A DNA stretch of 37,884 bases. Source: Candidatus Eisenbacteria bacterium. Its GTDB lineage: Bacteria; Eisenbacteria; RBG-16-71-46; SZUA-252. The notes beneath the pieces were generated by a model. That model was given only the letters and a program-made list of their open reading frames with translations. It had not been told where the DNA came from and did no database searches. Numbering within the stretch: the first letter of the stretch is position 1; every line of letters starts with the position of its first letter. The stretch spans positions 73,436-111,319 of the forward strand of contig VBOZ01000008.1 of assembly GCA_005893305.1 (NCBI GenBank), written 5' to 3'. The translations under genes and the position numbers were made by a program. This document shows, one piece after another, positions 18,913-33,915 of this stretch.

Positions 18913-19879
18913 CGATGACCTGCATGAGATCGTGCCCTTCCTCGGCGGAGGCCATGGGGCGCTCGCCTTGGGTCAGGCAGCGGAGGAAATGGTCCAGCTC
19001 GCGCTCGTACGACTGCTTGTAGATGTTCTTCGTCGATTCCAGCGGCGGGGTCACGTTGAGCAGGTTCCCGTTCAGCTCCTTGTGGATGCGAAACGGATTC
19101 AAGAGCGCCGCGCCGTCGGTGCCGAAGAGGTTCAGGTACGGGAAGTTCCTCTCGAGCAGCAGGGCCCAGCTGACTTCCAGCGTGAGCGAGGCACCACCGT
19201 CCAGGACCAGAAACGCGGCCACCGTGTCCTCGACGTCCTTCCGCGGATCGGTCACGTACTTCGATGCCGTCACCGAGACGACCTTGGGGTTTCCGAGGAG
19301 CCAGAGCGAGAGATCGAGCATCTGGACCCCGAGGTCCATGAGCACCCCTCCCCCCGAGCTCTTCTTGTTCTCGTACCAGCCGGGTCCGCGGCGCTCGGTC
19401 CGGCGCAGCAGCCAGCCCGTCTTGACGTAGAAGATCTTCCCGAGCTCCTTGCGCTCGAGGTAGCCGCGCAGCACGGACACGTCGCTCCGGAACCGGTTGT
19501 TCATGGCGTACATGAGAACCTTGCCCGAGCGCTCGGCCGCGACGGCCATCTGGGCCGCCTCCGCCGCGGTCCTGGCCGCCGGCTTCTCGCAGAGGACGTG
19601 CTTCCCGTAGCCGAGCGCGGCCTGGGTCATCGGCGCGTGGAGGTGATTCGGGGTGGCGATGATGACCGCGTCGATGTCGTCCGAGCGAAGGAGCGACTCA
19701 TAGTCGGCGACCGCGCGGCCGATTCCGAAATGTTGGGCCACCATGCGGGCCTTCTCGACGTCGTCGTCGCAGACCGCGACCACCTCCACGTCCCTCCGCG
19801 ACTTCAGCGCGGGAAGATGGTTGACCTGGGCGACGACTCCGACCCCGATGACTCCGAGTCGGATGGGACGTTGGGCCAA
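18863..19879 (-). CDS. Gfo/Idh/MocA-family NAD(P)-dependent oxidoreductase
   Basis: 338 residues. N-terminal Rossmann fold (LGVIGVGVVAQVNHLP near residue 8), the family lysine in GKHVLCEKPAA (about 95), and the C-terminal alpha/beta sugar-binding domain with KSSGGGVLMDLGVQMLDL. The substrate, probably a sugar or inositol derivative, cannot be told. Start is a TTG at 19879 with GGGAG 7 bases upstream; longer versions of the frame run into the promoter and the previous gene. Its own promoter lies 50 bases upstream. Context with lnt is not informative. Confidence 0.88.
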   Translation of the reverse strand: MAQRPIRLGVIGVGVVAQVNHLPALKSRRDVEVVAVCDDDVEKARMVAQHFGIGRAVADYESLLRSDDIDAVIIATPNHLHAPMTQAALGYGKHVLCEKPAARTAAEAAQMAVAAERSGKVLMYAMNNRFRSDVSVLRGYLERKELGKIFYVKTGWLLRRTERRGPGWYENKKSSGGGVLMDLGVQMLDLSLWLLGNPKVVSVTASKYVTDPRKDVEDTVAAFLVLDGGASLTLEVSWALLLERNFPYLNLFGTDGAALLNPFRIHKELNGNLLNVTPPLESTKNIYKQSYERELDHFLRCLTQGERPMASAEEGHDLMQVIDAIYQSAEARREVRLH

Positions 19880-19931
19880 GTGAGGGCTCCCGAAGAGGGA
19901 TCGGCGTCGTGAAGGCGGCGAACTTCGCGCG

Positions 19932-19959
19932 AGTATAGGGACCGGTGTCGCGAAATCAA
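19932..19959 (-). promoter_or_regulatory. Predicted sigma-70-type promoter for the oxidoreductase-lnt pair
   Basis: On the minus strand, -35 TTGATT (19959-19954), 16-base spacer, -10 TATACT (19937-19932, five of six consensus bases). The TGA within the -35 box is the stop codon of the sigma-54 activator gene (19958-19956). Leader to the TTG start would be about 45 bases. Confidence 0.6.
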
Positions 19960-21080
19960 GGCGAATCAGGCCGCGTATCGTCCGCGCGCGTGTTCGTTCC
20001 CGGTGCGGCCACCGCGTGCGCATCCGCGGCGACCGCGTGCGCATCCGCGGCGACCTCGTCGCGCGCGAGGCGGCGGATTTTCTTCCAGAGCCCCTGCCGC
20101 GTGAGTCCCAGAGAACGGGCCGCCCGCGTGCGATTTCCGCCGGTGCGCCGGAGCGCACTCTGGATCATCTCCACTTCCAGCTCGCGCGTGCGGCCGCGCA
20201 GGTTCTCCGCGCGCTCCCGGACGACCGGGACATCCACCGCGGCGAGCCCTTCCCCCAGGGAGTCGTGCGTCAGCGTCCCGCCCGGACCGAGCGCGTGAAC
20301 CGCGCGCTCGAGGGCGGTCTCGAGCTCCCGCACGTTCCCGGGCCAGGGGTACCGCGCCAGGACATCGAGCGCCTCACCGGTGATCCGTCTCGCCTCGGGC
20401 CGCTGCCGGCGCGAGAGGCGCCGGAGGATGTACGCGACCAAGAGCGGCACGTCCTCGCTCCGCTCGCGGAGCGAGGGAGCGCGGATGGTGAGGACGTGGA
20501 GCCGGTAGAAGAGATCGGCCCGGAAGCGCGCCCCGCGGACCTCGGCGGCCAGATCGCGGTGCGTCGCGGCCACGATGCGCACGTCGACGCGACGAACGCG
20601 GCCGTCGCCGACGCGGCGGAGCTCGCCTTCCTGGAGCACGCGGAGGAGCCTGCTCTGCACCGAGGGGCTCGCGTCGCCGATCTCGTCCAGGAACAGGGTG
20701 CCCCCGTTCGCGAGTTCGAAGAGACCGGGCCGGTCGGCGTGGGCGCCGGTGAAGGAGCCCTTCGCATGACCGAAGAGCTCACTCTCGACCAGGGAATCGG
20801 GGATCGAGGCGAAGTTGTGGGGAAGGAACGGACGCTCGGAGCGGGGACTCTCGCTATGGAGCGCCCGCGCGATCAGCTCCTTCCCCGTTCCCGTCTCGCC
20901 GTGCACGAATACGGTCGCCGGGCTCGGCGCCAGGGCCGCGATCCGATGCCCCAGCTCGATCACCGCGCGGCTTCGGCCGACCAGGCCGAGCGTCTCGGCG
21001 TGCGGCCCGTACCCGTCCGTGGCGAGCTCCTCGATCTCGAGCGCCCGGCGACGGTCGTGCTCCCATCCCACAGCCATCAT
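19956..21080 (-). CDS. Sigma-54-dependent transcriptional activator without receiver domain
   Basis: 374 residues. AAA+ domain with Walker A GETGTGKE (61-68), the sigma-54-contact loop GSFTGA (108-113, usual form GAFTGA), Walker B TLFLDEIG (128-135) and the arginine-finger region, then a Fis-type helix-turn-helix ([23 protein letters not shown]). It activates sigma-54 promoters. Only about 30 residues precede the AAA+ domain, so there is no receiver, GAF or PAS input. The C-terminal tail contains a repeated AADAHAV heptapeptide produced by a 21-bp tandem duplication. ATG 21080 follows a GGGGGA. Genes it controls are not evident here. Confidence 0.9.
20011..20052. repeat. Perfect 2 x 21-bp tandem repeat in the tail of the sigma-54 activator
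   Basis: Two identical 21-base units (20011-20031 and 20032-20052) back to back. They are in frame and encode a doubled heptapeptide after the DNA-binding domain. The unit length is a multiple of three, so copy-number change would not break the gene. Confidence 0.9.
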
Positions 21081-21095
21081 CCCAATCCCCCGAAC

Positions 21096-22115
21096 CTACG
21101 CCAGCACTACCTCCCTTGTTCCGGCAACGGCCTCTCCGACGCGGAAGGCCGGGTGACCCGCTTTCTTGAGCGCCCGCTCGATCGTCTCGGCATCCTTTCG
21201 CCGCACCACCATCAGAAGCCCGATTCCCATGTTCCAGACCTCGTAGGCTTCCGACGCCGGCACCTTCCCCGCCTCGCTGAGAAATCGAAAGAGTGGGGGA
21301 ATGGGCCAGCCCGCGGCGCGGATCTCGGCGCGAACGTTCTCCGGAAGGATGCGCACCAGATTCCCGGGAATCCCGCCCCCGGTGATGTGCGCCATGCCCC
21401 GCACTTCTCCCGCCGCGCGCGCGACCCCCACCGGCGCGCCGTAGTAGAGGTGCGGCAAGAGGAGCACGTCCCCGACCGTGCCCCCGCCCGCGGGGAACGG
21501 ATCCGTAATCTTGAGGCCGAGGCCGTCGAAGAGGATCGACCGCGCGAGCGAGTAGCCGTTCGTGTGAAGTCCCGCGCTCGGGAGCCCGAGGATCTGGTCG
21601 CCCGGTTCGATCGCCGAGCCGTCGATGATCCCGGCCTCGGGCGCGATCCCGACGATGGCGCCCGCCAGGTCGTAGTCGCCCGGCGCGTAGAGCCCAGGCA
21701 TCTCGGCGGTCTCGCCGCCGATCAGCGCGCACCCGACCTCGCGGCAACCCCGCGCGAGCCCGCGGACGAGCAGCTCCACCCGCTCCGGGGAGAGGGCTCC
21801 CATCGCGATGTAGTCCAGAAAGAAGAGCGGCTTGGCCCCGTGCACCAGGATGTCGTTCGCCGAGTGGCAGACGAGGTCGTACCCGACCGTGTCGTGCCGG
21901 TCGCAAAGGATCGCGACCTTGAGCTTCGTGCCGACGCCGTCCAGGCTCGAGAGGAGGACCTGCCCCGGCGCGCCCGGCACGCGGAACGCGCCCGCGAAGC
22001 CGCCGAGGTCGCCGACCACCTCCGGGCCGAAGGTGGACCGGCAGAGCGCCCGAATCCGGTCGACCGCCTCCTGGCCCTTCCGGATATTGACGCCGGACTC
22101 CTCGTAGCGGCCCAT
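21096..22115 (-). CDS. purM: Phosphoribosylformylglycinamidine cyclo-ligase (AIR synthase) PurM
   Basis: 339 residues. Signatures of AIR synthase: the N-terminal YEESGVNIRKGQEAVDRI, the ATP-binding SSLDGVGTKLKVA, ALIGGETAEMPG, and AHITGGGIPGN. It makes aminoimidazole ribonucleotide from FGAM, the step after PurL-PurQ. ATG 22115 overlaps the stop of the HD-GYP gene by one base (TGATG). It is separated from the main purine run by 6.6 kb of unrelated genes. Confidence 0.96.
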   Translation of the reverse strand: MGRYEESGVNIRKGQEAVDRIRALCRSTFGPEVVGDLGGFAGAFRVPGAPGQVLLSSLDGVGTKLKVAILCDRHDTVGYDLVCHSANDILVHGAKPLFFLDYIAMGALSPERVELLVRGLARGCREVGCALIGGETAEMPGLYAPGDYDLAGAIVGIAPEAGIIDGSAIEPGDQILGLPSAGLHTNGYSLARSILFDGLGLKITDPFPAGGGTVGDVLLLPHLYYGAPVGVARAAGEVRGMAHITGGGIPGNLVRILPENVRAEIRAAGWPIPPLFRFLSEAGKVPASEAYEVWNMGIGLLMVVRRKDAETIERALKKAGHPAFRVGEAVAGTREVVLA

Positions 22116-23452
22116 CACGCCTCCGCTCGCTCCGGCTCCGGGATCGACTGGACCGGCTCCGCATCGGCTCCGTCGAGGAGGAGCACCAGCGCTTCGACGA
22201 TCTCGCGATCGAACTGCGAGCCGGCGTGGGCGCGAAGCTCGGCGAGCGCGCGCGGGATGGGGAGGCCTTTCCGATAAGGACGGTCCGACGTCATCGCGTC
22301 GAACGCGTCGCAGACGTGGATGATCCGAGCGCCCAGGGGCACGTCGGTCTCCGTGAGGCCGGGCGGATACCCCTTTCCGTCGGGGCGCCAGTGATGTGTG
22401 CGCACCATGCGCGCCGCGTCGCGCAGGGCCCGGATCTGCCCGATGATCTTCGCCCCAGCCTCCGGGTGGCGCATCATCAGCGTCCGCTCTTGGTCGCTGA
22501 GCACGGTCGGCTTCCGGATAACATCGGGGCGCTGGGCGATCTTCCCGATATCGTGAACGAGCGCGGCGTAGCGGATCGTCTCCACCTCGGCGCTCCCGAG
22601 CCCCATGTGCCGCGCGACGCGGACCGAATACTCGGCCACGCGCACCGAATGCTCGTGGGTGTACGGGTCGACCGCGTCGAGCGCCACGCTCAACGCGCGG
22701 ACGAAGCTCACCAGATCCTCGCGCAGATCGGCGTAGAGCCGAAGCGTGTAGCGCGCGAAGACGAGCGGGAGGACCAGGAGCAGGACACCCGGGATGCCGG
22801 CCGCGAGGCGCACCTGCGCGAAGAGGAGCCCGAATCCCAGGGAGAGCCCGTGCTGGGGCAATCCGTCCCGAAAATGCTGTCGCCAGATCGTGAGGGCCGG
22901 CTCGCGGGCGCGCGCGCCAAGGACGAAGCTGACCCAGGCCGTGTTCAGGGCGTAGTAGAGCGAGCCCGCGAGGAGCAGCGGAACGAGGTTCCGGACCCAA
23001 TGCGAGGCGCCCAGCTCGCCGCCGGCGGCGAGGTACGCGGAGCCGGCGACGATCGTGGTCGATGCGTAGAGACCGGCGTTCAGCGCGGCCGCTCCGGGCC
23101 GGTTTCGCAAGATCGCAAGCTGCGCGGGGATCGTCGTGAGGAGATCAAGCGCCCCCGCGATCCACGGTCCGAAGAGGAGGATCGCCCCGATGTCGAGGAT
23201 CGACGCCACCGTCATCGTGCCCCCGCGCGGGAGCGGCACGGGGAGCGCCTCGGCGGCGAGGAGAAGCCCGAACCACGCGACGATCGCCCACATGTCCCAT
23301 CGCGTCTGCTTCAGATCCTCGCCGCCGAAGATCGCGAGGAGGAGCGGAAGCGACGCCAGGAATGACGGGACCAGGAGCCAGACGAGGCGCTGCCCGAAGA
23401 CGGCCGGCTGATTCGGCTCCGATGCCGGGCGCTGAGAGCTCAGATCATCCAT
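22115..23452 (-). CDS. Membrane-bound HD-GYP domain protein (probable c-di-GMP phosphodiesterase)
   Basis: 445 residues. About seven hydrophobic segments (roughly 22-235) form a membrane sensor, followed by an HD-GYP domain: the metal-binding HD pair His300-Asp301 in LVHDIGKIAQRP, HH of RTHHWRPDGKGYP (about 353-363), and DAFDAMTSDRPYRKG. HD-GYP proteins hydrolyse c-di-GMP. The membrane part resembles that of the histidine kinase at 29473-30882. ATG 23452 with GAGGA 6-7 bases upstream was preferred to a longer frame. It is coupled to purM by a 1-base overlap although the functions seem unrelated. Confidence 0.9.
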   Translation of the reverse strand: MDDLSSQRPASEPNQPAVFGQRLVWLLVPSFLASLPLLLAIFGGEDLKQTRWDMWAIVAWFGLLLAAEALPVPLPRGGTMTVASILDIGAILLFGPWIAGALDLLTTIPAQLAILRNRPGAAALNAGLYASTTIVAGSAYLAAGGELGASHWVRNLVPLLLAGSLYYALNTAWVSFVLGARAREPALTIWRQHFRDGLPQHGLSLGFGLLFAQVRLAAGIPGVLLLVLPLVFARYTLRLYADLREDLVSFVRALSVALDAVDPYTHEHSVRVAEYSVRVARHMGLGSAEVETIRYAALVHDIGKIAQRPDVIRKPTVLSDQERTLMMRHPEAGAKIIGQIRALRDAARMVRTHHWRPDGKGYPPGLTETDVPLGARIIHVCDAFDAMTSDRPYRKGLPIPRALAELRAHAGSQFDREIVEALVLLLDGADAEPVQSIPEPERAEA

Positions 23453-23632
23453 GCGATGTCCTCGGGCGCGTTGGTTGAGATCCCAGAGACACGCCGCCCC
23501 GCGCAACGAGCGTGCCACGCGGGCGCGACGCGGCGACCGCGCAAGCCGCGGAACGACCCAGCGCGGACGCCGCTCCGAGGCCAGCGACTGCGCCTCGAGG
23601 CGTCAGGGGGCCGTCGCCGTCGAAGCGCACGC
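23453..23632. other. 180-base GC-rich spacer upstream of the HD-GYP gene
   Basis: No gene recognised. Contains a perfect 12-bp palindrome CGCCTCGAGGCG (23591-23602) about 30 bases after the pfkB-type stop; there is no T-run, so I do not call a terminator. No convincing -35/-10 pair was found. Confidence 0.4.
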
Positions 23633-24562
23633 TCAACGGAGGATGCGCGCCGTATCCGAAAGGTCGAAGCGGCTCATGGAAGCGATTCCCTCCGCACGGT
23701 CGAGGATCGCCTCCCGCGACGCGCGCAAGAGGCCGGTCACCCCGAACCCCTCGACGGTGAATGAGGCAAGGACGCAGCCGTAGACCACGGCCCGGCGGAG
23801 ATTCCGGTCATCCACGCGCCCCATCCTGGCGAGCGCCCCGACGAAGCCCCCCGCGAACGTGTCGCCCGCTCCGGTGGGATCGACGACGGTCCCGATCGGA
23901 TACGCCGGGCAGCTGAAGTACTCGTCGCGGCCCTGCAGAAACGCGCCGTGCTCCCCCTGTTTTACCACAACCGTCTCGGGGCCGAGGGAGAGGATCGCGC
24001 GGGCGGCCTTGTGCGTCAGCGCTTCCCCGGTGATCTCGCGCGCCTCTTCCTCGTTGATGATCAACATGCGAACCCGGCGGAGAATCCCGAGCAGCTCCGC
24101 CCGCTTGCTCTGGATCCAGTAATTCATCGTGTCCGCGAGAACGAGCTGAGGCTTCTCGAGCTGATCCAGAACGTCCCCCTGCAATACCGGATCGATGTTG
24201 GCGAGGAAGACGGTCTTGAGCGCGCGGGTCTCGCGGGGCAGCTTGGGCTTGAATCGCTCGAAGACGTTCAGCTCGGTGCGGAGCGTTTTCCGCGTGTTCA
24301 TATCGTCGCTATAGACGCCCTCCCAGCGGAAGGTCTTCCCCTCGCTCACCTCGAGGCCGCTCAGGTCGAGCTCGGCCTGCTGCAGGGTCGCGCGGGCCTC
24401 GGCGGGAAAGTCCTGCCCGACGACCGCCACCACGGAGACCGGCAGGAAGTAGCGCGCCGAGAGCGCGAAGTAGGCGGCGGACCCGCCGAGCACCTCCGTG
24501 ACGCGCCCGGCCGGGGTCTCGATCGTGTCGAGGCCGATCGAGCCGACGACCGCGATCGCCAC
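23633..24562 (-). CDS. PfkB-family carbohydrate/nucleoside kinase
   Basis: 309 residues, ribokinase fold. N-terminal AIAVVGSIGLDTIETP and GGSAAYFALSARY, and the C-terminal PfkB signature DPTGAGDTFAGGF with the catalytic Asp of GAGD, are present. Substrate is not evident; sugar, nucleoside or sugar-phosphate are possible. Start GTG 24562, two bases after the argS stop, with GGAG upstream; the conserved N-terminus starts right there. Last gene of the polyprenyl synthase-rsfS-argS run. Confidence 0.88.
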   Translation of the reverse strand: MAIAVVGSIGLDTIETPAGRVTEVLGGSAAYFALSARYFLPVSVVAVVGQDFPAEARATLQQAELDLSGLEVSEGKTFRWEGVYSDDMNTRKTLRTELNVFERFKPKLPRETRALKTVFLANIDPVLQGDVLDQLEKPQLVLADTMNYWIQSKRAELLGILRRVRMLIINEEEAREITGEALTHKAARAILSLGPETVVVKQGEHGAFLQGRDEYFSCPAYPIGTVVDPTGAGDTFAGGFVGALARMGRVDDRNLRRAVVYGCVLASFTVEGFGVTGLLRASREAILDRAEGIASMSRFDLSDTARILR

Positions 24563-24564
24563 GG

Positions 24565-26244
24565 CTACATCGTCTCCGGCGCGCTCACGCCGAGGAGGTG
24601 GAGCCCGCGGCGGAGGACCACGCCCGTCGCGCGGGTGAGAAGGAGCCTGGCCGCCGTCCGCTCGGCATCGGCGGTGACGACGCGATGTTGATGATAAAAC
24701 GAATGAAAGCGAGCCGCTAAGTCCTTGAGATAAGCCGGGATCCGATGTGGCTCCCGGCTCCTGGCCGCGGCGGCCACGAGGGACGGAAATCCGGCCAGGC
24801 CGCGGAGTAGCGTCTCCGTCTCCGGCTCCGTGAGGAGATCGAGCTTGGCCTTCCCGGGATCCGGCTCGGGGACTCCCTGCTCCTTGGCATAGGCGAGCAC
24901 GTGGGCGATCCGGGCGTGGGCATACTGAACGTAGAAGACCGGATTCTCTTCGGTGCGGCGAACCGCGAGCTCGAGGTCGAAGTCCATGGGGCTCTCGGCC
25001 CGCCTCATCAAAAAGAAGAACCGCGCGGCGTCCACGCCGACCTCGTCGATGAGCTCGCGCAGGGTGATGAACTCGCCGGACCGCTTCGACATCTTGACGA
25101 CCTCTCCGGCGCGAAGAAGCCGGACCCACTGGATCATGATCACGTCGAAGCGATCGCGGGGCCACCCCAGCGCCTCGATGACCCCTTCCATCCGCGCGAC
25201 GTGGCCGTGGTGGTCGGGACCCAGGAGATCGATCAGCCGGTCGAAGCCGCGCGAGAACTTGTCGTTGTGATAGGCCGCGTCCGCGAGGAAGTAGGTGGGC
25301 TCCCCGTTCGACCGCACGACGACGCGGTCCTCCTGGTCCCCGAACTGGGTCGAGCGGAACCAGAGCGCGCCGTCGCGCTGTTCCAGAAGCCTTTGTTCGT
25401 GGAGCCGGTTCCGGGCCGCGTCGACCGCGCCGCCGCGGTGAAGCTCGCTCTCCCGCATCCAGCGGTCGATGCGGGCTCCGAACCGCTCGAGCTCCGCCTT
25501 CTGGACCTCGAGCATCCGATCGATACCCCACGCGCCGAACTTGAGGCGCTGATCCCGCTCGGGAAGCTCGAGCCACCCGCGCCCGGTAGCTAGGTCGAGC
25601 TCCTTGACGAGCTCGGCGACGTAATCGCCGGAGTATCCCTCTTCGGGAACCGGGGGCGCCGTGGCGCCGATCGACTCCGCGAATCGCGTCCGGATCGACG
25701 CCCCGAAGAGCTCGGCCTGGAGTCCCCAGTCGTTGCAGTAGAACTCGCCGGCCGCGCGCCAACCCGCGGCGTTCAGGATCCGGATCAGCGTGTCCCCGAT
25801 GCTCGCGGCGCGCGCGCTCACCACGTTCAAGGGACCGGTGGGATTGGCGCTGACGTACTCGACCAGCACCTTCTCGCCGCCTCCGGCCTCGCTCGCGCCG
25901 TAGGTGTCGGGCCCGGCCAGGATCTTCCGCACCGTGTCTTGAAGCCACGCGGGAGCGAGCCGAAAGTTCAGGAACCCCGCGCCGGCGGTCTCGACCGCGG
26001 TCACGACCCTGGGATCGACCTCGAGGGCTTCGATCAGGGACTTCGCGACGTCGCGCGGCGGGCGGCGCGCGGACTTGGCGAGCGTAAGCGCCACGTTGCT
26101 CGCCCAGTCGCCGTGTCCCGCCTCGCGCGGTACCTCGACCTCGACCGGAACTCCCTCCGGAAGCGCTAAGCCCGCCTTCCCGATCGCCGCATGGAGCCGG
26201 TCGATCAGGTAGCCCTCAATCGGCCACGACTTCACGATCGGCAT
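24565..26244 (-). CDS. argS: Arginyl-tRNA synthetase with altered HIGH motif
   Basis: 559 residues. Class I synthetase: N-terminal Add-1 domain (about 1-110), catalytic domain with VEYVSANPTGPL (129-139), KMSKRSG, and a C-terminal DALR anticodon-binding domain. The class I HIGH signature that normally follows ANPTGPL (HxGH) reads NVVS here (140-143), so both signature histidines are absent, while the flanking ARAASIGD is conserved. ATG 26244 overlaps rsfS by 29 bases; a longer frame from 26289 is a shadow. It charges tRNA-Arg unless a second argS exists elsewhere. Confidence 0.93.
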   Translation of the reverse strand: MPIVKSWPIEGYLIDRLHAAIGKAGLALPEGVPVEVEVPREAGHGDWASNVALTLAKSARRPPRDVAKSLIEALEVDPRVVTAVETAGAGFLNFRLAPAWLQDTVRKILAGPDTYGASEAGGGEKVLVEYVSANPTGPLNVVSARAASIGDTLIRILNAAGWRAAGEFYCNDWGLQAELFGASIRTRFAESIGATAPPVPEEGYSGDYVAELVKELDLATGRGWLELPERDQRLKFGAWGIDRMLEVQKAELERFGARIDRWMRESELHRGGAVDAARNRLHEQRLLEQRDGALWFRSTQFGDQEDRVVVRSNGEPTYFLADAAYHNDKFSRGFDRLIDLLGPDHHGHVARMEGVIEALGWPRDRFDVIMIQWVRLLRAGEVVKMSKRSGEFITLRELIDEVGVDAARFFFLMRRAESPMDFDLELAVRRTEENPVFYVQYAHARIAHVLAYAKEQGVPEPDPGKAKLDLLTEPETETLLRGLAGFPSLVAAAARSREPHRIPAYLKDLAARFHSFYHQHRVVTADAERTAARLLLTRATGVVLRRGLHLLGVSAPETM

Positions 26245-26584
26245 CGCCCCAGAGCTTATCGAGGAGGTAGTACTCCCGCGCGCGTGCATGGAAGACGTGG
26301 ACGACGAAGTCGACGTAATCGAGGAGAATCCACCGGCGCGCTTCGAATCCCTCGGAGTGCCACGGCCTGACGCCGCGCTCCCGAAGCCCGAGGTCGACCG
26401 CCTCGGCGATGGCCTTGACCTGAACCTCGGAGTGCCCCGTCGCGAGGACGAAGTAGTCGCAAACGCCGTCGAGCCGGCGCAGATCGAGGATGAGCACGTC
26501 CTCGGCCCGCTTCGTCAGCGTGAGCCGGGCCGCTTGGAGCGCGAGATCGTGGGGCGTGGATGGGGCCAGGGAGGGCAGGTTCAC
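26216..26584 (-). CDS. rsfS: Ribosomal silencing factor RsfS
   Basis: 122 residues, the usual RsfS/Iojap length. Family signatures: CDYFVLATGHSEVQVKAIA, GVRPWHSEGFEARRWILLDYVDFVVHVF, and the C-terminal YYLLDKLWGDA. It binds ribosomal protein uL14 and blocks subunit joining in starvation. Start GTG 26584 makes a GTGA overlap with the polyprenyl synthase stop; the 3' end overlaps argS by 29 bases. Confidence 0.93.
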   Translation of the reverse strand: MNLPSLAPSTPHDLALQAARLTLTKRAEDVLILDLRRLDGVCDYFVLATGHSEVQVKAIAEAVDLGLRERGVRPWHSEGFEARRWILLDYVDFVVHVFHARAREYYLLDKLWGDADREVVAD

Positions 26585-27600
26585 CGATGCCGCGTGACCG
26601 CGTAGCGGAGCGCGTCGCGGAGCGATTCGCGCGCATCGGTGTCCGGAACGTGCTTGAGCTCCGACTCCGCCCGATCCGCGAGCTCCATGGAACGGGCCTG
26701 GCTGTACGAGACGCCGCCGTTCTCGGTCACGAAGCGGACCACGTCGGCCCAATGGCCGTTCCGGAATTCCTGGTTTCGGATCAAGTCCACCATCTGGCTC
26801 CGGTCGCGGTCGGGCGCGTTTCGGAGCGCGTTGATGAGAGGAAGCGTGATCTTGCCGCCGTCCAGGTCGCTCCCCATCGCCTTCCCCATCACGCTCTCGG
26901 CGCCCAGGTAGTCGAAGATATCGTCCGTGATCTGGAAGGCCAGCCCCACCGCGTGGCCGAACCGGCCCAGGGCGCGCCGCGCCCCCGCGTCGCCGCCCGC
27001 CGCGAGCGCTCCCAGCTCGCAGCCGGCCGACATCAGGCACGCCGTCTTCTCCTCGATGACGCGCATGTACTCGGCTTCCGTCAGGTCGAGACGGTTCTTC
27101 TGCTCGATCTGGCGGAGCTCGCCCTGGCTCATCCGGTGGGTCGCCTCCGCGAGCAGATCCATCGCGCCGTACATGCGGTTTCGAACCAGGATCGAGAATG
27201 CCTTCGAGTAGAGGTAATCGCCCATGAGGATCGCCACGTCGTTGCTCCACGCGCTGTTCACGGTGGGCAAACTCCGCCGGACGAGGCTCTTGTCGATGCT
27301 GTCGTCGTGAATCAGCGTCGCGGTGTGGATCAGCTCCACGACCACCGCGCCGAGGAGCGCCTCCTCCGTGACCGATCCGAACGCCTGGGAGGTCAGCAGG
27401 AGGAGCGTGGGGCGGAATCGCTTCCCGAACGCGCGGTGGAGGTGCGCGCCGACCGCTCCGACCAGGTGGACGTCGCAGAAGAATGCGTCGTCCAGGCGTT
27501 CCTGGAACCGCTCGAACGCCTCGGCGATTGGGCCCCGAATAACCTCGAGGGTTGGCTCCTCGGTCTGGGTCCGCTCTCGGCTCTGCCCGTTCCTGGTCAA
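26581..27600 (-). CDS. Trans-type polyprenyl diphosphate synthase
   Basis: 339 residues. Both aspartate-rich motifs are intact: DDSID (99-103) and DDIFD (226-230), plus KRFRP near residue 60 and KITLPLI. It elongates allylic diphosphates, probably to the octaprenyl or heptaprenyl side chain of a quinone, given the small residues before the first motif; chain length is not certain. Start is a TTG at 27600 with AGGAG just upstream; there is no ATG before the conserved region. It has its own promoter at the end of the preceding gene. Confidence 0.92.
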   Translation of the reverse strand: MTRNGQSRERTQTEEPTLEVIRGPIAEAFERFQERLDDAFFCDVHLVGAVGAHLHRAFGKRFRPTLLLLTSQAFGSVTEEALLGAVVVELIHTATLIHDDSIDKSLVRRSLPTVNSAWSNDVAILMGDYLYSKAFSILVRNRMYGAMDLLAEATHRMSQGELRQIEQKNRLDLTEAEYMRVIEEKTACLMSAGCELGALAAGGDAGARRALGRFGHAVGLAFQITDDIFDYLGAESVMGKAMGSDLDGGKITLPLINALRNAPDRDRSQMVDLIRNQEFRNGHWADVVRFVTENGGVSYSQARSMELADRAESELKHVPDTDARESLRDALRYAVTRHR

Positions 27601-27641
27601 GTCGCTCCTAGTGCCTGGAAGGAATTGAATTACGGGCCGCC

Positions 27642-27670
27642 AGCCTAGGCTCCAGGCCCCCTTAAGTCAA
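27642..27670 (-). promoter_or_regulatory. Predicted sigma-70-type promoter for polyprenyl synthase-rsfS-argS-pfkB
   Basis: On the minus strand, -35 TTGACT (27670-27665), 17-base spacer, -10 TAGGCT (27647-27642). The first three bases of the -10 are the TAG stop codon of the upstream nucleotidyltransferase gene (27647-27645). Leader to the TTG start is about 35 bases and includes the AGGAG site. Confidence 0.55.
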
Positions 27671-29027
27671 TCGAAAAGGCCTCGCGTGCCCTCCGGAGCA
27701 GCCGTTCCCGCTCATTCAACGACGGTTCCTCAACGACCTGCTCGAGCAACCAGCCGAGGATTTCCCCCACCCGGGGCCCGGGCGGGAGGCCAAGCTCCCG
27801 CATCACGTCCTTACCGTCCACCTTGAGGTCGCCCAGCGTCAGCGCCGCCTTGGCCGCGAGGACGCCCTCGATCCTCCCGCGGAACTCTTCAAGATAGTGT
27901 GGGAATCCCGTCTTCAGCCCGTTGCCGACATTGTCCGCGATCCGAAGATCGAAGAGGTCGGCGATCTTGTCCACCCCGACTTTCTGCACGAACCGACGCA
28001 CCGCCGCGTCCGTCCACTCCGGCCGGTAGTCGAACATGTGGTACCGCACCAGATGGACCACCTGCTCCATGGTATCGCGGCCGAATCGCAGCCGGGTCAT
28101 CGCCTCCTCGGCGAGCCGGGCGCTCTCGAACTCATGATTGTAGAACGTGGCGTCCCCGTTCTCCCGCTCGACGCGTGTTACCGGCTTCCCCACGTCGTGG
28201 AACAGGGCCGCGAGGCGCACGATCGGCTTCTCGGCCGGGGCGGAATCCACGGTATAGAGCGTATGGAAGTAGACGTCGTGGGCGTGATAGCGATTCTGGG
28301 GAACGGCGACGGAAGCCTGCAGCTCGGGGAGGAGAATCGCGAGGAGCCTCGCCTTCCGGAGCACCTCGAAGCCTCGGGACGGCCGAGGAGCGCCCAGGAG
28401 CTTCAGGAGCTCGTCCCGAAGCCGCTCCGCGGCCACGCGCGCGACCTCGGCCCGCGCCTCGCCGAGCGCCGCTTCGGTCGCCGGCTCGAGATCGAACTCC
28501 AGCGTGGCCGCGAAGCGCGCCGCGCGGATCGGCCGGAGCCCGTCTTCGCGGAAGCGATCGACCGGTGATCCCACCGCTCGGAGAAGCCGCGCTGAAAGAT
28601 CGTCCCGGCCCCCGAAGGGATCGACCTCCTCCCCGTGGAGAGGATCCCACGCGATCGCGTTCACGGTGAAGTCGCGCCGCGCGAGGTCGGCCTCGAGATC
28701 GGTGACGAACTCGACCCGATCGGGGCGTCTCGCGTCGGTGTATCCCCACTCGATCCGGAAGGTCGTCACCTCACAGGGACCCGCGTCGGTCGGCACGGTG
28801 ACGGTGCCGTGCTTGAGGCCGGTCGGGATTGCGGAGGGGAAGATTTTCAGCACTTCCTCCGGGCGCGCGATCGTGGCGATGTCCCAGTCGGAGACCGCCA
28901 CGCCCCGGAGGAGGTCCCGAACGCAGCCGCCCACGAGGTAGGCGCGGTGCCCGGCCCGTTGGAGGCGCCGGAGCAGATCCGTGATCGCGGCCGGGACCCG
29001 CTTGGGATCGAGTGGACGGAGTGTCAT
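27645..29027 (-). CDS. CCA tRNA nucleotidyltransferase / poly(A) polymerase family protein with HD domain
   Basis: 460 residues. Class II nucleotidyltransferase head with LVGGCVRDLLRG (31-42) and the metal-binding DxD, Asp47 and Asp49 (SDWDI), the RRDFTVNAIA segment, the RNA-binding DGLRPIRAARFA region, and an HD domain (LAALFHDVGKP). It most likely adds or repairs tRNA CCA ends; poly(A) or A-adding variants share this architecture. ATG 29027 has GGAG 4 bases upstream. Confidence 0.9.
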   Translation of the reverse strand: MTLRPLDPKRVPAAITDLLRRLQRAGHRAYLVGGCVRDLLRGVAVSDWDIATIARPEEVLKIFPSAIPTGLKHGTVTVPTDAGPCEVTTFRIEWGYTDARRPDRVEFVTDLEADLARRDFTVNAIAWDPLHGEEVDPFGGRDDLSARLLRAVGSPVDRFREDGLRPIRAARFAATLEFDLEPATEAALGEARAEVARVAAERLRDELLKLLGAPRPSRGFEVLRKARLLAILLPELQASVAVPQNRYHAHDVYFHTLYTVDSAPAEKPIVRLAALFHDVGKPVTRVERENGDATFYNHEFESARLAEEAMTRLRFGRDTMEQVVHLVRYHMFDYRPEWTDAAVRRFVQKVGVDKIADLFDLRIADNVGNGLKTGFPHYLEEFRGRIEGVLAAKAALTLGDLKVDGKDVMRELGLPPGPRVGEILGWLLEQVVEEPSLNERERLLRRAREAFSIDLRGPGA

Positions 29028-29055
29028 CCCGCTCCATGGTACCAGACGGGGCGGC

Positions 29056-29084
29056 TTGTGCCGCGCCCGGCGACTGCGTAGGCT
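29056..29084 (+). promoter_or_regulatory. Possible promoter of the DUF2279-type gene, placing transcription at its start codon
   Basis: -35 TTGTGC (29056-29061), 17-base spacer, -10 TAGGCT (29079-29084), the same -10 as the polyprenyl synthase promoter. Expected transcription start, 7 bases on, is at about 29091-29092, where the GTG start codon lies. The -35 is only partly consensus. Confidence 0.4.
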
Positions 29085-29091
29085 CGCGCCC

Positions 29092-29472
29092 GTGCGACCC
29101 GTGCGCCCCACCATCACCCCCGCCCTGAATCCCGCCCTCTTCGCCGCGCTCACCATCACGATGCTTGTGTGGTTCGGGACGGCCTCGGCCGAGCCTCTCT
29201 TTCTCCCGGCCTCGTCGCAGGGCGGATGGCTGGCCGCGGACAAGGAGCTCCACTTCGCCGGCTGCCTCGCGATCTCCGCTTCCCTGCGCGTGGCGGGGCG
29301 ATCCGACGGCGAGAGCTTCGGCGGCGCGATCGGGGTCGGAGTCCTCAAGGAGATCTACGACGGGACCCTCAAGCCGCGCCGCAAGGGGCACGGGGCCAGC
29401 TGGAAGGATTTGGCCGCGGACATCCTCGGCGCCGCGGCCGGGATCGCGATCGTCGGCGCGCTGGACCGGTAG
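29092..29472 (+). CDS. Small exported protein of DUF2279/YfiM type
   Basis: 126 residues, one of only two plus-strand genes. A signal-peptide-like N-terminus (hydrophobic stretch to about residue 33, ending in TASA|EP) is followed by a domain with DKELHFAGCLAIS and GVLKEIYDGTLKPRRKGHGASWKD, matching the DUF2279/YfiM pattern of small membrane-associated proteins related to VanZ-like folds; function unknown. Start is uncertain: GTG 29092 and GTG 29101 are both in frame with no ribosome binding site. Its TAG stop abuts the TAG of the opposite-strand kinase gene (TAGCTA at 29470-29475). Confidence 0.72.
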   Translation: MRPVRPTITPALNPALFAALTITMLVWFGTASAEPLFLPASSQGGWLAADKELHFAGCLAISASLRVAGRSDGESFGGAIGVGVLKEIYDGTLKPRRKGHGASWKDLAADILGAAAGIAIVGALDR

Positions 29473-30882
29473 CTAGGCTCCGTTCTTGGCCGGGAGGACG
29501 ATCGTGAATCTCGCTCCCGCGCGCGCCATGTTCTCCGCGGCGATTCGGCCCCCGTGGTTCTGCACGATCCGGTAGCAGGTCGATAGCCCGAACCCGTGCC
29601 CCTCGGGCTTCGTGGTGAACGACGGCTCGAAGAGCCGCGTCATGGCGGTGGCGGGAATGCCGGGTCCGGTGTCCTCCACCGCGAGCTCCACCTCCTGTCC
29701 GGCGGTCTTGAACCGCGTCCGGATCGCGATGCGACGCTCCCGGACGTCGTTCCCGCGCATGGCGTCGGCGGCGTTGCTGAACAGATTGAGGAGGACCTGC
29801 TGGATCTGAGCCGGATCGATGTTCATCTCCGGCAGATCGCCGGCGAGATCCAGATCGAACGCGACCTGCTCATATTTGTTCTGCGGCACGATGAATTCGA
29901 CCGTGCGGCGGACCACGTCGTTGAGCCGCGTCGGCTGCAATCTAACGCCCTGGTGCGAGAAATCGAGGAGACCCTTGACGAGCACGCCCATGTTGCTCGC
30001 CTGCTCGAAGATGATCCGGGCGCTTTCTTTGAGTCGATCCGGCTGGATCGCTCCCCCGACGTTCATGAGCAGGAGCTGCGCCCGGCCCGAGATCGCCGCC
30101 AGGTAGTTGTTCAGCTCGTGGGCGATCTCGGCGGCCATTTCCCCCTTCGCCGCGAGACGCTCCGAGGATATGAGCTCGTCCTTCGCCTTCTCGAGGGCGA
30201 TGTAGCGCGCGCCCGCCTCCTTGATCAGAAAGAGCGGCACGAAGAAGAAGACGAGGCCGAAGAACCCGACCGCGAGGTAGGAGACGACGATGAGGGGCGA
30301 GAGGAAGAAGAGCGCCGTGGAGCCGACCAGGGAATTGTAATAGAGGTACTCCTCGCGCCAGGTCTTGAGTATGGGGCGGCCCGAATCGAGCGCGACGGCC
30401 GCGGAGACGAGGAGGGTATTCATCAGAAAGTAGACCACCGTCGCGCCGACCCAGGGGAGCAGCATCTGGTGCCCCCGCAGCGCGTCGAGCCCCCTCTCCG
30501 CGAGCGGCGCCCCGCCCAGCGCGGTGAACGCGAGCCCCGCGGCGGTGAGCGTGATCACGTTCTGGCCCGCGTTGAAGACCGCCTTGTACCAGACCCGGTG
30601 GGAGAAGAAGACATTCGCGAGCGTGAAGGCGATCGCGACGATCCAGATCGCCGGCTTGAAGCCGAGGAGGATCAGGAGGCTGATGTCGACCGTGGAGGCC
30701 ATGCTCTCCATGGCCTTCCCGGTGACCGTGGGGAGCCAGAGGCTCTCCGCCAGGAGGCTCACCAGGATCCAGGCGGCGAGGTACATCGCGCCGATCGCCC
30801 AGAACGAATGGAAGGAGAGCGCGAGGAGCGCGCCGCCGACCGCGCCGACGATCGCGATGAACGCGACGAGACCTTGCGTCAT
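29473..30882 (-). CDS. Membrane sensor histidine kinase
   Basis: 469 residues. About seven membrane segments (1-225), a short coiled linker (KEAGARYIALEKAKDELISSERLAAKGEM), then HisKA with phospho-acceptor His255 in AAEIAHELNNYLA, and a HATPase_c domain with N-box NLFSNAADAM, G1 box VEDTGPGIP, and FEPSFTTKPEGHGFGLS. The hybrid NtrB/ZraS-type kinase core is typical of partners of sigma-54 response regulators, but no response regulator is adjacent. The membrane domain resembles the HD-GYP protein's. ATG 30882; its promoter lies 130 bases upstream. Confidence 0.92.
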   Translation of the reverse strand: MTQGLVAFIAIVGAVGGALLALSFHSFWAIGAMYLAAWILVSLLAESLWLPTVTGKAMESMASTVDISLLILLGFKPAIWIVAIAFTLANVFFSHRVWYKAVFNAGQNVITLTAAGLAFTALGGAPLAERGLDALRGHQMLLPWVGATVVYFLMNTLLVSAAVALDSGRPILKTWREEYLYYNSLVGSTALFFLSPLIVVSYLAVGFFGLVFFFVPLFLIKEAGARYIALEKAKDELISSERLAAKGEMAAEIAHELNNYLAAISGRAQLLLMNVGGAIQPDRLKESARIIFEQASNMGVLVKGLLDFSHQGVRLQPTRLNDVVRRTVEFIVPQNKYEQVAFDLDLAGDLPEMNIDPAQIQQVLLNLFSNAADAMRGNDVRERRIAIRTRFKTAGQEVELAVEDTGPGIPATAMTRLFEPSFTTKPEGHGFGLSTCYRIVQNHGGRIAAENMARAGARFTIVLPAKNGA

Positions 30883-31010
30883 GGATTCACCGGGCGACGA
30901 TGGAGGCGCGCGCTAGGAGGATACGGATTGGAAGGTCTTCGCGAACGCGCTCCGATTCGCGCGGGCCGGCCAGGGCGTGCCGGAACGCGACCTTCCGTGG
31001 TCACGACGCG
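30883..31010 (-). promoter_or_regulatory. Structured untranslated leader before the histidine kinase
   Basis: About 120 bases from the predicted start site (near 31004) to the ATG. It contains an 8-bp inverted repeat GGAAGGTC/GACCTTCC (30930-30937 and 30989-30996) that encloses smaller hairpins (CCGGC/GCCGG and GCGAA/TTCGC). No known riboswitch or RNA family was recognised. Confidence 0.35.
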
Positions 31011-31039
31011 AACCTAACAGCGGGCTAGAGGACCGTCAA
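31011..31039 (-). promoter_or_regulatory. Predicted sigma-70-type promoter for the histidine kinase
   Basis: On the minus strand, -35 TTGACG (31039-31034), 17-base spacer, -10 TAGGTT (31016-31011). The TGA in the -35 is the stop codon of the LolA-like gene (31038-31036). Confidence 0.55.
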
Positions 31040-31764
31040 CGGGATTCCCCCCGGTTGTCGCGCTCGAGGAGCTCCCTCGGGTTGAGCGGCTCCTCGGGGG
31101 TGCCCTTGGGCGCGCTCAAATCCAGGTCGCGCGGCCTCGCGGCCTTCAAGAGGGCGAGGCCCCGGAGCTCCACGAGCACCGACTCCGCCTCGGAGTAGAT
31201 CGAGATCCACCGGGGGAGCCCGGAAGACGGATCGGCCGCGATCCACGTGGATACCTCCCCGAGCGAATCGCCCAGCGATGCCGACCTGAGGCGGTAGCCC
31301 GACCGCGCCGCCCCGCGGATCACGCGCCGCTCGGGAATCGAGCGGAGATCCTTGGCCAGGATCCGCTCCGGGTCCGAGATGAGCCGTCGGATCTGGAGGG
31401 GCGATCGAGTGAAGGGCGCACGGTAGACGAGCCGCTCGGCCGGGCTATAGACCAGGAACGCGTCGCGCTCCCGGTCGATGACCATCTCGTGCCCGCCTTT
31501 CCCCTCGGACTTGTAGCGAAGCCCCCGTCCCGGGAGATACCAGAGCCGGCCCCGCTCGACCTCGGGCGGACCCCCGAAGGGATCGCTCCGCTCGATCGAA
31601 ACGCGCGCGGTCGCCTCGGGCGCGCTGGCCATCGGGCGGAGCATGGCGTGCACCGCCTCCTCAGGGTCGGCATCCCGCCGCGAGGCTGCCGGAGGAGCCG
31701 CGGATACCGCGATGGCGCTCAACGCGACGACCGCGACGACCGCGACGCGGAGCTCCGCCCTCAC
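31036..31764 (-). CDS. LolA-like outer-membrane lipoprotein carrier protein
   Basis: 242 residues with an N-terminal signal peptide (hydrophobic 6-22, cleavage near VSAAPPA). The mature part looks like the LolA fold, an open beta-barrel: EVERGRLWYLPGRGLRYKSEG, HEMVIDRERDAFLVYSPAERLVYRAPF, then GYRLRSAS...WIAADPSSGLPRWISIYSE, the usual LolA order of strands. LolA proteins shuttle lipoproteins across the periplasm. The GTG start (31764) overlaps the stop of the upstream lipoprotein gene as GTGA. Membership is by fold pattern, so confidence is moderate. Confidence 0.68.
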   Translation of the reverse strand: MRAELRVAVVAVVALSAIAVSAAPPAASRRDADPEEAVHAMLRPMASAPEATARVSIERSDPFGGPPEVERGRLWYLPGRGLRYKSEGKGGHEMVIDRERDAFLVYSPAERLVYRAPFTRSPLQIRRLISDPERILAKDLRSIPERRVIRGAARSGYRLRSASLGDSLGEVSTWIAADPSSGLPRWISIYSEAESVLVELRGLALLKAARPRDLDLSAPKGTPEEPLNPRELLERDNRGESR

Positions 31765-32597
31765 GGCGCCGCCCCCGAGTCGGCGACGCCGAACAGGCGG
31801 CCGAGCAGCTCACGTCCGCGTGGATCGTCGAGCGCGAGGATCGTCCAATCGGCCCGCGCGGGAGGCAGCCTATGGAACTGGGACGGTTTCGCCGCGGCGT
31901 GGTCTTCGATATCCAGACGAATGCGCGTCGCGCCTCGCGTCCACTCGATCCATCGTGGGACGCGCCCGCTCTTGAATCGCCCGACCGGCCCATACCGGAT
32001 CGCGATCGAATTCCGATCGTCCGAGCCGAGCCGGATCTTGAGCGTCCTCGGCTCCGCCTTCGCGCTCAGCTCCAGGGTGAACGGGTGGGCGCCGTCCGCG
32101 CCGTCGAACGCGCCCGCGAGTCGCCACCCCTCGCCTGAAGCCTCGACCGCCGCATGCTCGACCGCCCGGCGCACCCGGGGCGCGCCGAACGCCCAGGGGC
32201 GCGCGAGGAAGCGGAGGCCGTCGGGACCGAGCCCGCCGCGGGATTGGACCCGCCCCGCGAGGCCGAGATCGTAGGGACGGATCGTGATGTAGACCGAATC
32301 CGCGAGGACCGTCGCGTCGAGCGTGCGGATCGGGCCCGCGTAGGCCACCACCGCGAGGCTCTCGTGAACCGCGGCCCAGCGGGTGTTCAAGCCCTCGCGC
32401 CCCTTCCCGCCGCTCCGGACCGCGAGCATCCCCGCGCCCCTCGTCGCCGAATCCACGCCGGCGAAGGCCTCGAGGAACCTGGCGCGGGCTTCCCCGCCGG
32501 TCGAGGGAGCCGGCCCGTGGGCGCAGCCGGCCGCGAGGAGGAGGGCGCAAATCGCTTGCGCCGTTCCGGCGCGCCGGGCAAAGTCCCCGCAATGCAG
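31761..32597 (-). CDS. Predicted outer-membrane lipoprotein, LolB/DUF4292-like
   Basis: About 278 residues. A lipobox LLLAAGC is followed by about 250 residues of alternating beta-strand pattern similar to LolB/DUF4292 lipoproteins (for example GGKGREGLNTRWAAVHESLAVVAY, then VYITIRPYDLGLAGRV). The start is a problem: no ATG, GTG or TTG lies in a sensible place before the lipobox. The closest candidate is CTG 32597, 25 codons before the lipobox Cys, with a GGCGGGGG stretch upstream. That start overlaps the ATG of the divergent pgeF gene. It is coupled to the LolA-like gene by a GTGA overlap, suggesting a carrier/receptor pair. Confidence 0.62.
   Translation of the reverse strand: MHCGDFARRAGTAQAICALLLAAGCAHGPAPSTGGEARARFLEAFAGVDSATRGAGMLAVRSGGKGREGLNTRWAAVHESLAVVAYAGPIRTLDATVLADSVYITIRPYDLGLAGRVQSRGGLGPDGLRFLARPWAFGAPRVRRAVEHAAVEASGEGWRLAGAFDGADGAHPFTLELSAKAEPRTLKIRLGSDDRNSIAIRYGPVGRFKSGRVPRWIEWTRGATRIRLDIEDHAAAKPSQFHRLPPARADWTILALDDPRGRELLGRLFGVADSGAAP
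32544..32562. repeat. Inverted repeat upstream of pgeF, inside the lipoprotein signal sequence
   Basis: Perfect 7-bp arms GGCGCAA/TTGCGCC with a 5-base loop. On the plus strand it overlaps a weak TTGCGC-17-CAAAGT promoter-like pair (32556-32584) that would start transcription at the pgeF ATG. It could be an operator or an RNA hairpin, or simply codon use. Confidence 0.35.
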
Positions 32598-33362
32598 GCG
32601 CCCCCGCCGGACCGCGACGCCGTCGCGTTTTGGAGACCAGCGCCGGGCGACTTCCCCCCGCGCGCGGGGTTCGCGCTCGCGTTCCGGCGGGGCGGAGTGA
32701 GCCTCGACCCCTACGCCTCGCTCAACCTCGGCTTGGGGGTGGGCGATGAGGAGCGGTCGGTGCGGGAGAACCGCCGCCGGCACAACGCCGCGGCCGGGAT
32801 CGAGGGCGACGAGCCGCTGCGCCTTCACCAGGTGCACGGGCGGCGCATCGTCGAGCCGCGCCAGGCGCCGTGCGAGGCCGACGGGTTTCTCCTCCGCGCC
32901 GGAGATCCATGGGTCGCCGTCTCTGCCGCGGACTGCGCGCCGGTCGCGATCGTGGCGGAGGACCTTGGGAGGGGCGTTCTCCTCCATTGCGGGTGGCGCG
33001 GAGCGCGGGAGCGGATCGCGGCCCACGCCGTGAGCCTGCTCGAAACGGTCGGCGTTGCGAGGGAGCGGCTCCACGCCGCGATCGGTCCGTGCATCCGCGC
33101 CTGCTGCTTCCCGATCGGACCCGAGGTCGCGGCGCAGTTCGACCCGAAGCTTCTCCACGAGCACCCCAGCGGCCGGCCCGCGCTCGATCTCCCCGAGGCG
33201 ATCGCCGCCGCCCTCCTCGAGGCGGGGATCCCGCGCGAGCGAATTCGCGCGACGCCGGATTGCACCTCGTGCCTCCCCGATTTCTATTTCTCCCATCGGA
33301 GGGACCGGGGCGTCACGGGCCGGCACTGGGCGATTCTCCGACTCCCGCCTTTGGGCGCCTGA
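32592..33362 (+). CDS. pgeF: Multicopper-oxidase-like (laccase domain) protein, PgeF/YfiH family
   Basis: 256 residues. The family's metal/active-site residues are present: RLHQVHG (His), SAADCAPV (Cys) and LHCGWRGA (His), and the C-terminal DCTSCLPDFYFSHRRD with GVTGRHWA. Members are variously described as peptidoglycan-editing factor and as purine nucleoside phosphorylase/adenosine deaminase. ATG 32592 begins right at the divergent lipoprotein gene's start. The 3' end overlaps the PAP2 gene on the other strand by 50 bases. Confidence 0.92.
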   Translation: MQAPPPDRDAVAFWRPAPGDFPPRAGFALAFRRGGVSLDPYASLNLGLGVGDEERSVRENRRRHNAAAGIEGDEPLRLHQVHGRRIVEPRQAPCEADGFLLRAGDPWVAVSAADCAPVAIVAEDLGRGVLLHCGWRGARERIAAHAVSLLETVGVARERLHAAIGPCIRACCFPIGPEVAAQFDPKLLHEHPSGRPALDLPEAIAAALLEAGIPRERIRATPDCTSCLPDFYFSHRRDRGVTGRHWAILRLPPLGA

Positions 33363-33906
33363 ACCACCGCTGCGCGTTCCGCTCCAGGCGCAGGAACGCC
33401 TTTCGACCCAGCATCCCGAGGCCGAGCCCGAGAAGGATCCCCGCGAGGACATCCGAAGGCCAATGATCCCCGACGTAGACCCGGGAGAAGCAAACCAGGG
33501 CCGCCACGACGGCGGCCGGAATCGTCGCCGCCGGAAACACGGTCGCGACGATCGGTACCGCCGCGGAGAAGTTGACGGCGTGGACCGACGGGAAGGCGTA
33601 GGAGCGGCGCACGCCGAAGAGCGGGTGCGAGTCGGCGAGAACCACGGAAGGACGCGGGCGCTTCACGATCGGCTTGATGATCTTCGCGCTGACCTGGTCC
33701 GCGACCGTGAGCGTCAGCGCGAGGACGACGAGCGCCAGAGCTCCGCGGGCTCGCTGCGTCAGGAACAGCGCGCCCACGAGAACGAGGAGCGGAATCTTCC
33801 AGCGCCCCGGATCCGTGAGCGCCATCATGATCGGATCGAGCGCGGGGTGGTGGAGCCCGAGATGGATGGCCCGGAAGAGCGCCGGGTCCCAGGCAAGGAG
33901 AATCAC
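33313..33906 (-). CDS. PAP2-superfamily membrane phosphatase
   Basis: About 197 residues with five to six membrane segments. Phosphatase motifs: KPIVKRPRP (KxxxxxxRP), FPSVHAVN (motif 2; the usual PSGH reads PSVH here), and SRVYVGDHWPSDVLAG (motif 3). It probably removes phosphate from a lipid such as undecaprenyl diphosphate or phosphatidic acid. Starts GTG 33906 or TTG 33909 are both possible, 6-9 bases after the barrel gene's stop. The gene's end runs 50 bases into pgeF, antisense. Confidence 0.85.
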   Translation of the reverse strand: MILLAWDPALFRAIHLGLHHPALDPIMMALTDPGRWKIPLLVLVGALFLTQRARGALALVVLALTLTVADQVSAKIIKPIVKRPRPSVVLADSHPLFGVRRSYAFPSVHAVNFSAAVPIVATVFPAATIPAAVVAALVCFSRVYVGDHWPSDVLAGILLGLGLGMLGRKAFLRLERNAQRWFRRPKAGVGESPSAGP

Positions 33907-33915
33907 CAAGCCCGG

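Follow-up and report, generated by a model that had tools for sequence, protein, structure and literature searches.

Two signalling proteins with related membrane halves

This analysis concerns 37,884 nucleotides of a Candidatus Eisenbacteria bacterium contig (VBOZ01000008.1, positions 73,436 to 111,319; this whole stretch is called the window), from a genome of 2.75 Mb in 39 contigs that is 95.8% complete, and in particular two proteins encoded on its reverse strand, in each of which a membrane sensor domain is joined to a cytoplasmic signalling domain. One is a predicted HD-GYP-type cyclic di-GMP (c-di-GMP) phosphodiesterase (22115-23518; Pfam HD_5, E-value 3.4e-33) of 467 amino acids counted from a GTG start, with an alternative ATG at residue 23. 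Its output domain (22118-22702) holds an HD domain with the HD and GYP motifs (HDIGK and HHWRPDGKGYP), has the catalytic domain and these motifs in common with the solved HD-GYP phosphodiesterases 5z7c (2.9e-36) and 4mcw (2e-28), and on these features would be expected to hydrolyse c-di-GMP. The GYP motif starts with HHW in the eight HD-GYP proteins of the window's family that hold that stretch (the window's own and seven others), and with HHE in other relatives. The second protein is a sensor histidine kinase of 469 amino acids (29473-30882; HisKA 1.9e-9, HATPase_c 1.6e-23, MASE9 1.3e-5), whose HisKA and HATPase_c output part (29473-30168) carries the phospho-acceptor H-box AHELNN and the G-box DTGPGI. 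The predicted sensor domains, backed by AlphaFold models and VIA structural alignment and in the kinase also by the MASE9 match, span roughly residues 40-270 in the HD-GYP protein (22709-23401) and residues 1-235 in the kinase (30178-30882).

An earlier note on this DNA had located both reading frames correctly and had proposed, from motifs common to the membrane halves, that a single sensor family signals through c-di-GMP turnover in one protein and through phosphorylation in the other. The motifs are all present and aligned, although the spacing of AW..LL.AE.L.LP is only approximate: W38 of the kinase pairs with W82 of the HD-GYP protein, E46 with E90, the ILL.G segment at 70-74 with 112-117, FNAG (103-106) with LNAG (146-149), YFLMNT (151-156) with YYALNT (188-193), and TWRE with IWRQ. 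The two membrane halves match each other by BLASTP with 29% identity over 168 amino acids (E-value 9e-9, as a single comparison), and the HD-GYP protein used as a query against the whole genome recovers the kinase membrane region (1.5e-5). Class-wide profiles built from 37 kinase rows and 32 HD-GYP rows align over 223 columns with a probability of 99.9 and an E-value of 1.2e-32, again for a single comparison, while 14 control reading frames with multiple helices from outside the family stayed at or below 0.8% with the kinase profile and 1.3% with that of the HD-GYP proteins in hhalign. The homologous stretch is longer than the earlier note had set it, and the AlphaFold models show helices in the same order in both proteins, the one ending at kinase residue 47 being followed by a short pair of strands, so that the differing helix counts named in the note as a refutation did not appear; in the HD-GYP model the DSSP assignment merges the closing helices into one run (184-241). 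The two membrane halves are therefore paralogous, homologous sensor domains, alike beyond chance, and the proposal of one sensor family with two outputs is backed by sequence, profiles and predicted structure. Sensor families that serve more than one output are already known as a kind.

The known family to which the kinase form of this sensor belongs is MASE9 (PF20972). The kinase exceeds its curated cut-off (25.7 bits against 24.3), as do both stand-alone copies of the domain in the same genome, whereas the HD-GYP protein of the window has no MASE9 match in Pfam at an E-value of 1 or better; it is a diverged relative that came to light by way of the kinase form and is tied to MASE9 only via relatives.

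Predicted fold and membrane orientation

The kinase membrane domain was modelled by AlphaFold with a predicted local distance difference (pLDDT) of 94.9 and a predicted template modelling score (pTM) of 0.90, and that of the HD-GYP protein (modelled from 22685-23410) with 90.5 and 0.84. For both models the best Foldseek matches in the Protein Data Bank (PDB) are S-components of energy-coupling factor (ECF) transporters. In VIA alignments S-components occupy ranks 1-22 for the kinase model (Z 15.0 to 8.1), followed by Lnt at 6.4, and ranks 1-20 for the HD-GYP model (Z 15.1 to 10.6), again followed by Lnt, at 7.7. The best single matches are the transition metal transporter 4m5b for the kinase (Z 15.0, 3.2 Å over 185 residues) and TmRibU 5kbw_B for the HD-GYP protein (Z 15.1, 3.2 Å over 159). 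According to these models, a six-helix core in common with S-components such as RibU, FolT, BioY, ThiT and CbiM/NikM is present in both sensors. In the kinase, helix 3-28 precedes the core and helix 207-234 follows it; as the VIA alignments stop near residue 209, the final helix lies outside the core, and with 4m5b, 4m58 and CbiM the alignment also covers the extra N-terminal helix. We infer that both membrane halves carry the ECF S-component core fold, which is not seen from sequence alone, and the new element here would be this fold for the present MASE9 group. In the limited library of literature that was searched, no paper names MASE9 and no link between MASE9 and the S-component fold is printed; for MASE7, 8, 10, 11 or 12 there was one paper, on an unrelated matter.

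Loop charges complicate the picture. In kinase numbering, the net charges of loops 93-99 and 168-182 are +1.78 and +1.05 in the kinases, +2.25 and +1.84 in the HD-GYP proteins, and +2.43 and +1.36 in the stand-alone copies, while loops 72-77, 122-137 and 203-209 are near neutral in all three subfamilies (-0.43 to +0.50). Values for the strand pair at 48-61 vary between the subfamilies (-0.68, +0.44 and +1.14, respectively). The loops L1, L3 and L5 of S-components lie on the outer, ligand side. Among six S-components of the class, matched by eye, five have an arginine at the turn corresponding to 72-77, and none has lysine or arginine in the NPxG stretch corresponding to 93-99. By the positive-inside rule, the positive loops would turn the core upside down relative to S-components, with the pocket side toward the cytoplasm. 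The sensor may thus read the cytoplasmic side, which we take as a hint. An initial model of seven crossings, with the N-terminus and the ligand outside, was withdrawn after this result.

The mismatch in loop charge can mean either that the orientation differs or that the fold mapping is off, and the latter is one of several points that weigh against the fold assignment. The Foldseek E-values are weak (0.042 for the kinase and 0.0032 for the HD-GYP protein), VIA's own notes state that the arrangement of a helical bundle can by itself give a Z of about 13, and the fold match rests on predictions from two models whose input alignments overlap and which are only partly independent. PDB profile searches with both sensors returned no S-component but only an unrelated enzyme (0.65 and 0.42), and in hhalign the kinase profile reached at most 2.2% against nine S-component candidates of the class, near the 0.8% of the controls. 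The HD-GYP profile gave a single weak match among many comparisons, to the S-component candidate L158 (50%, 1.6e-4), and the BLASTP match of the HD-GYP protein to the same candidate is short and weak (28 amino acids, 0.005). These sequence matches were not counted as proof of a link to S-components.

Relatives, outputs and gene neighbourhood

Relatives were collected from 47 genomes of the class, a search of the phylum having drawn the identical 47. The window's genome has four copies of the domain at an E-value of 10 or better, namely the two window proteins and two stand-alone membrane proteins on other contigs. A four-row profile matches 40 of the 47 genomes at 1e-3 and a larger profile 41 at 1e-4, one of them only by a 27-residue piece at a contig edge. 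Of 90 distinct domains, 89 come from these genomes. The remaining one (L022) belongs to a record named Acidobacteria and was the one additional locus when named genomes were scanned. By type, 37 of the 90 are kinases and 36 are HD-GYP proteins, of which one is truncated by the end of its contig; 14 are stand-alone copies, two are partial, and one is kinase-like but has no H-box. At an E-value of 0.01, Pfam assigns MASE9 to 67 of them, HisKA and HATPase_c to 37 each, HD to 35, PP2C to two and GGDEF to one. Even if each of the 54 domains outside the HD-GYP group matched MASE9, the total of 67 would still require 13 or more HD-GYP proteins that match it as well. The earlier note had suggested looking for the sensor with other outputs, and these do occur, behind the HD-GYP domain: two proteins (L102 and L104) run sensor-HD-GYP-PP2C, with a PP2C-type phosphatase, and L022 runs sensor-HD-GYP-GAF-GGDEF. 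The output motifs are intact.

Profiles of the stand-alone copies match those of the kinases (4e-49) and of the HD-GYP proteins (6.4e-31), both as single comparisons. In a tree of 83 domains, which has several long branches and unsure details and was midpoint-rooted for drawing only, all 32 HD-GYP domains fall on one side (support 100/100) and the kinase and stand-alone domains on the other (100/100). One kinase row (HK_18, from L064) is placed, with low support (84/54), next to the clade of stand-alone copies. The output label changes only twice across the whole tree and the split is deep; in the class as sampled, outputs have thus seldom been swapped, and kinase and HD-GYP sensors parted long ago. 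The sharing of a sensor by the two signalling proteins looks old and real.

In kinase numbering, E46, G55, N104, Y151, N155, V159 and G206 are among the positions conserved to at least 70% in each of the three subfamilies; they include the polar residues E46 (84-100%), N104 (81-93%) and N155 (91-97%), which lie in predicted helices. Other conserved residues are specific to a subfamily: F103, Q107, W80 and P196 in the kinases, and P118, D109, H223 and D268 in the HD-GYP proteins. Counted per genome, with some of the 40 genomes incomplete, both forms occur in 29, only the kinase in seven and only the HD-GYP form in four, one of which (G012) also has the kinase-like protein lacking the H-box.

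At its locus the HD-GYP gene lies in the order argS-pfkB-HD-GYP-purM-sigma-54 activator. The purM gene (21096-22148, reverse strand; AIRS 2.9e-23, AIRS_C 9.3e-27) overlaps the 3' end of the HD-GYP gene and is followed by a gene for a sigma-54 AAA+ activator with a Fis helix-turn-helix (19956-21080, reverse strand; Sigma54_activat 9.4e-65), which has no receiver domain among its Pfam matches. There are 34 HD-GYP loci in all, and at those with room to test, by limits of our own choosing and with argS named by eye, purM was found in 28 of 33, the activator in 27 of 28, pfkB in 27 of 33 and argS in 18 of 31. At one locus (L065:2302-4710) the HD-GYP reading frame continues without a stop into purM, giving 803 amino acids, which reflects either a fusion or an artefact of assembly. 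Within the window's family, the gene for the kinase is found upstream in the same gene row, separated by five genes on the same strand and a convergent open reading frame; both genes share a contig, with the same intervening genes, in six of the eight other genomes of the family, and are on separate contigs in two. The convergent frame (29020-29472, forward strand) lies between cca and the kinase gene, has no Pfam match, and occurs at the same position in six other genomes of the family. No known RNA family was found at gathering cut-offs in 19000-34000.

The two stand-alone copies in the window's genome each adjoin a paralogous lipoprotein-like gene (L012:5616-6221 and L013:7263-7916), in stretches that span L012:5616-6950 on contig C5 and L013:6535-7916 on C7 and have the gene order swapped, and such a neighbour is present at 10 of 16 stand-alone loci. 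The lipoprotein-like family has matches in 24 of the 47 genomes, and most members seen end in a C-terminal tail HFS(K/R)Y..G(K/R)AGW. This tail was considered as a mark of partners of stand-alone sensors and rejected, as a sensor domain lies in the stretch at only 11 of 30 inspected loci and is missing from it at 19.

Receptor, anchor or transporter

It is likely that the two window proteins carry MASE9-type paralogous sensors with a predicted S-component core, acting as putative small-ligand receptors that feed an HD-GYP or a kinase output. Each sensor would consist of the S-component-like core with one extra helix before it and one after, the latter leading into the output domain. A small ligand such as a vitamin, metal or metabolite would bind inside the bundle of helices, close to the two strands found after helix two, the loop charges favouring a pocket on the cytoplasmic face, and the final helix would relay the resulting change to the output, a phosphodiesterase dimer in the HD-GYP protein and a kinase dimer in the other. 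A published parallel is the 5TMR-LYT kinases (LytS/BtsS/YpdA), in which Partipilo and Slotboom describe the S-component fold, as they do, after earlier work, for MreD (PMC11109136). As far as that account goes, both types would combine an S-component fold and an additional N-terminal helix (H0 in those kinases) with outputs of various kinds; the sensors here differ in an extra helix after the core, and four aligned rows lack, in their hairpin, the NXR motif that is given there for the position behind helix 1. A link to 5TMR-LYT by family search was rejected, as PF07694 is found in none of the 47 class genomes at an E-value of 0.001, and the words MASE and HD-GYP are absent from the main text of that paper. 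For stand-alone copies, HmrC of Caulobacter crescentus, as far as its published description goes, offers a precedent of a stand-alone S-component-like membrane protein in a histidine-kinase pathway (PMC11481889).

That the domain instead still transports, either as an S-component with regulators attached or, in the stand-alone copies, as a solitary S-component of BioY/BtuM type, is highly improbable. The predicted fold would suit such a role, and a few S-components are described as transporting without an ECF module (PMC11109136). Docking on EcfT is described in the same source as requiring an AXXXA motif, which is not conserved in helix 1 here (5 of 37 kinases, 8 of 32 HD-GYP proteins and 3 of 14 stand-alone copies). 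EcfT/CbiQ (PF02361), present in 25 of the 47 class genomes, was not detected in any of the nine genomes of the window's family, so that transport through EcfT was rejected. Two of the four copies in the genome are fused to signalling outputs. The sensor domain would thus not dock on an EcfT module. A plain membrane anchor or dimerisation platform, with signals entering elsewhere and the likeness of fold incidental, would agree with a domain that has no known ligand and no clear sequence link to S-components, but it would hardly need E46, N104 and N155 to be kept in three subfamilies over deep divergence, and we regard it as improbable.

A linked pair in which the two proteins sense one and the same stimulus is likewise improbable. 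The 29 genomes with both forms and the conserved gene row in the window's family speak for such a pair; yet one form occurs by itself also in genomes given as 95-100% complete, the intervening genes look like housekeeping genes, and residues such as F103, Q107 and W80 in the kinases and D109, P118 and H223 in the HD-GYP proteins set the subfamilies apart. A comparison of "outer" and "inner" halves of the domain showed no difference, but these halves assumed the seven-crossing orientation, which the loop charges make doubtful, and the comparison is therefore void as to a shared stimulus. The suggestion in the earlier note that both proteins respond to the same stimulus thus finds no support in the deep subfamily split, the different conserved residues and the 11 of 40 genomes with only one intact form. 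Most likely, the kinase and HD-GYP forms see different, perhaps chemically related, ligands.

A bolder reading of the receptor proposal is speculative and, on balance, unlikely: that MASE9 would be a second large family of receptors with the S-component fold, inverted by its extra end helices and reading an intracellular ligand, and that the class would possess a three-way kit of a c-di-GMP copy, a phosphorylation copy and stand-alone copies beside a lipoprotein-like partner. If the receptor proposal is true, the link from transporter to receptor that is published for the 5TMR kinases would also take in the MASE9 family and HD-GYP enzymes, and the MASE9 ligand should resemble the ligands of S-components in size and kind. 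The kinase and HD-GYP sensors would then also offer natural pairs of the same fold with different outputs for chimera work.

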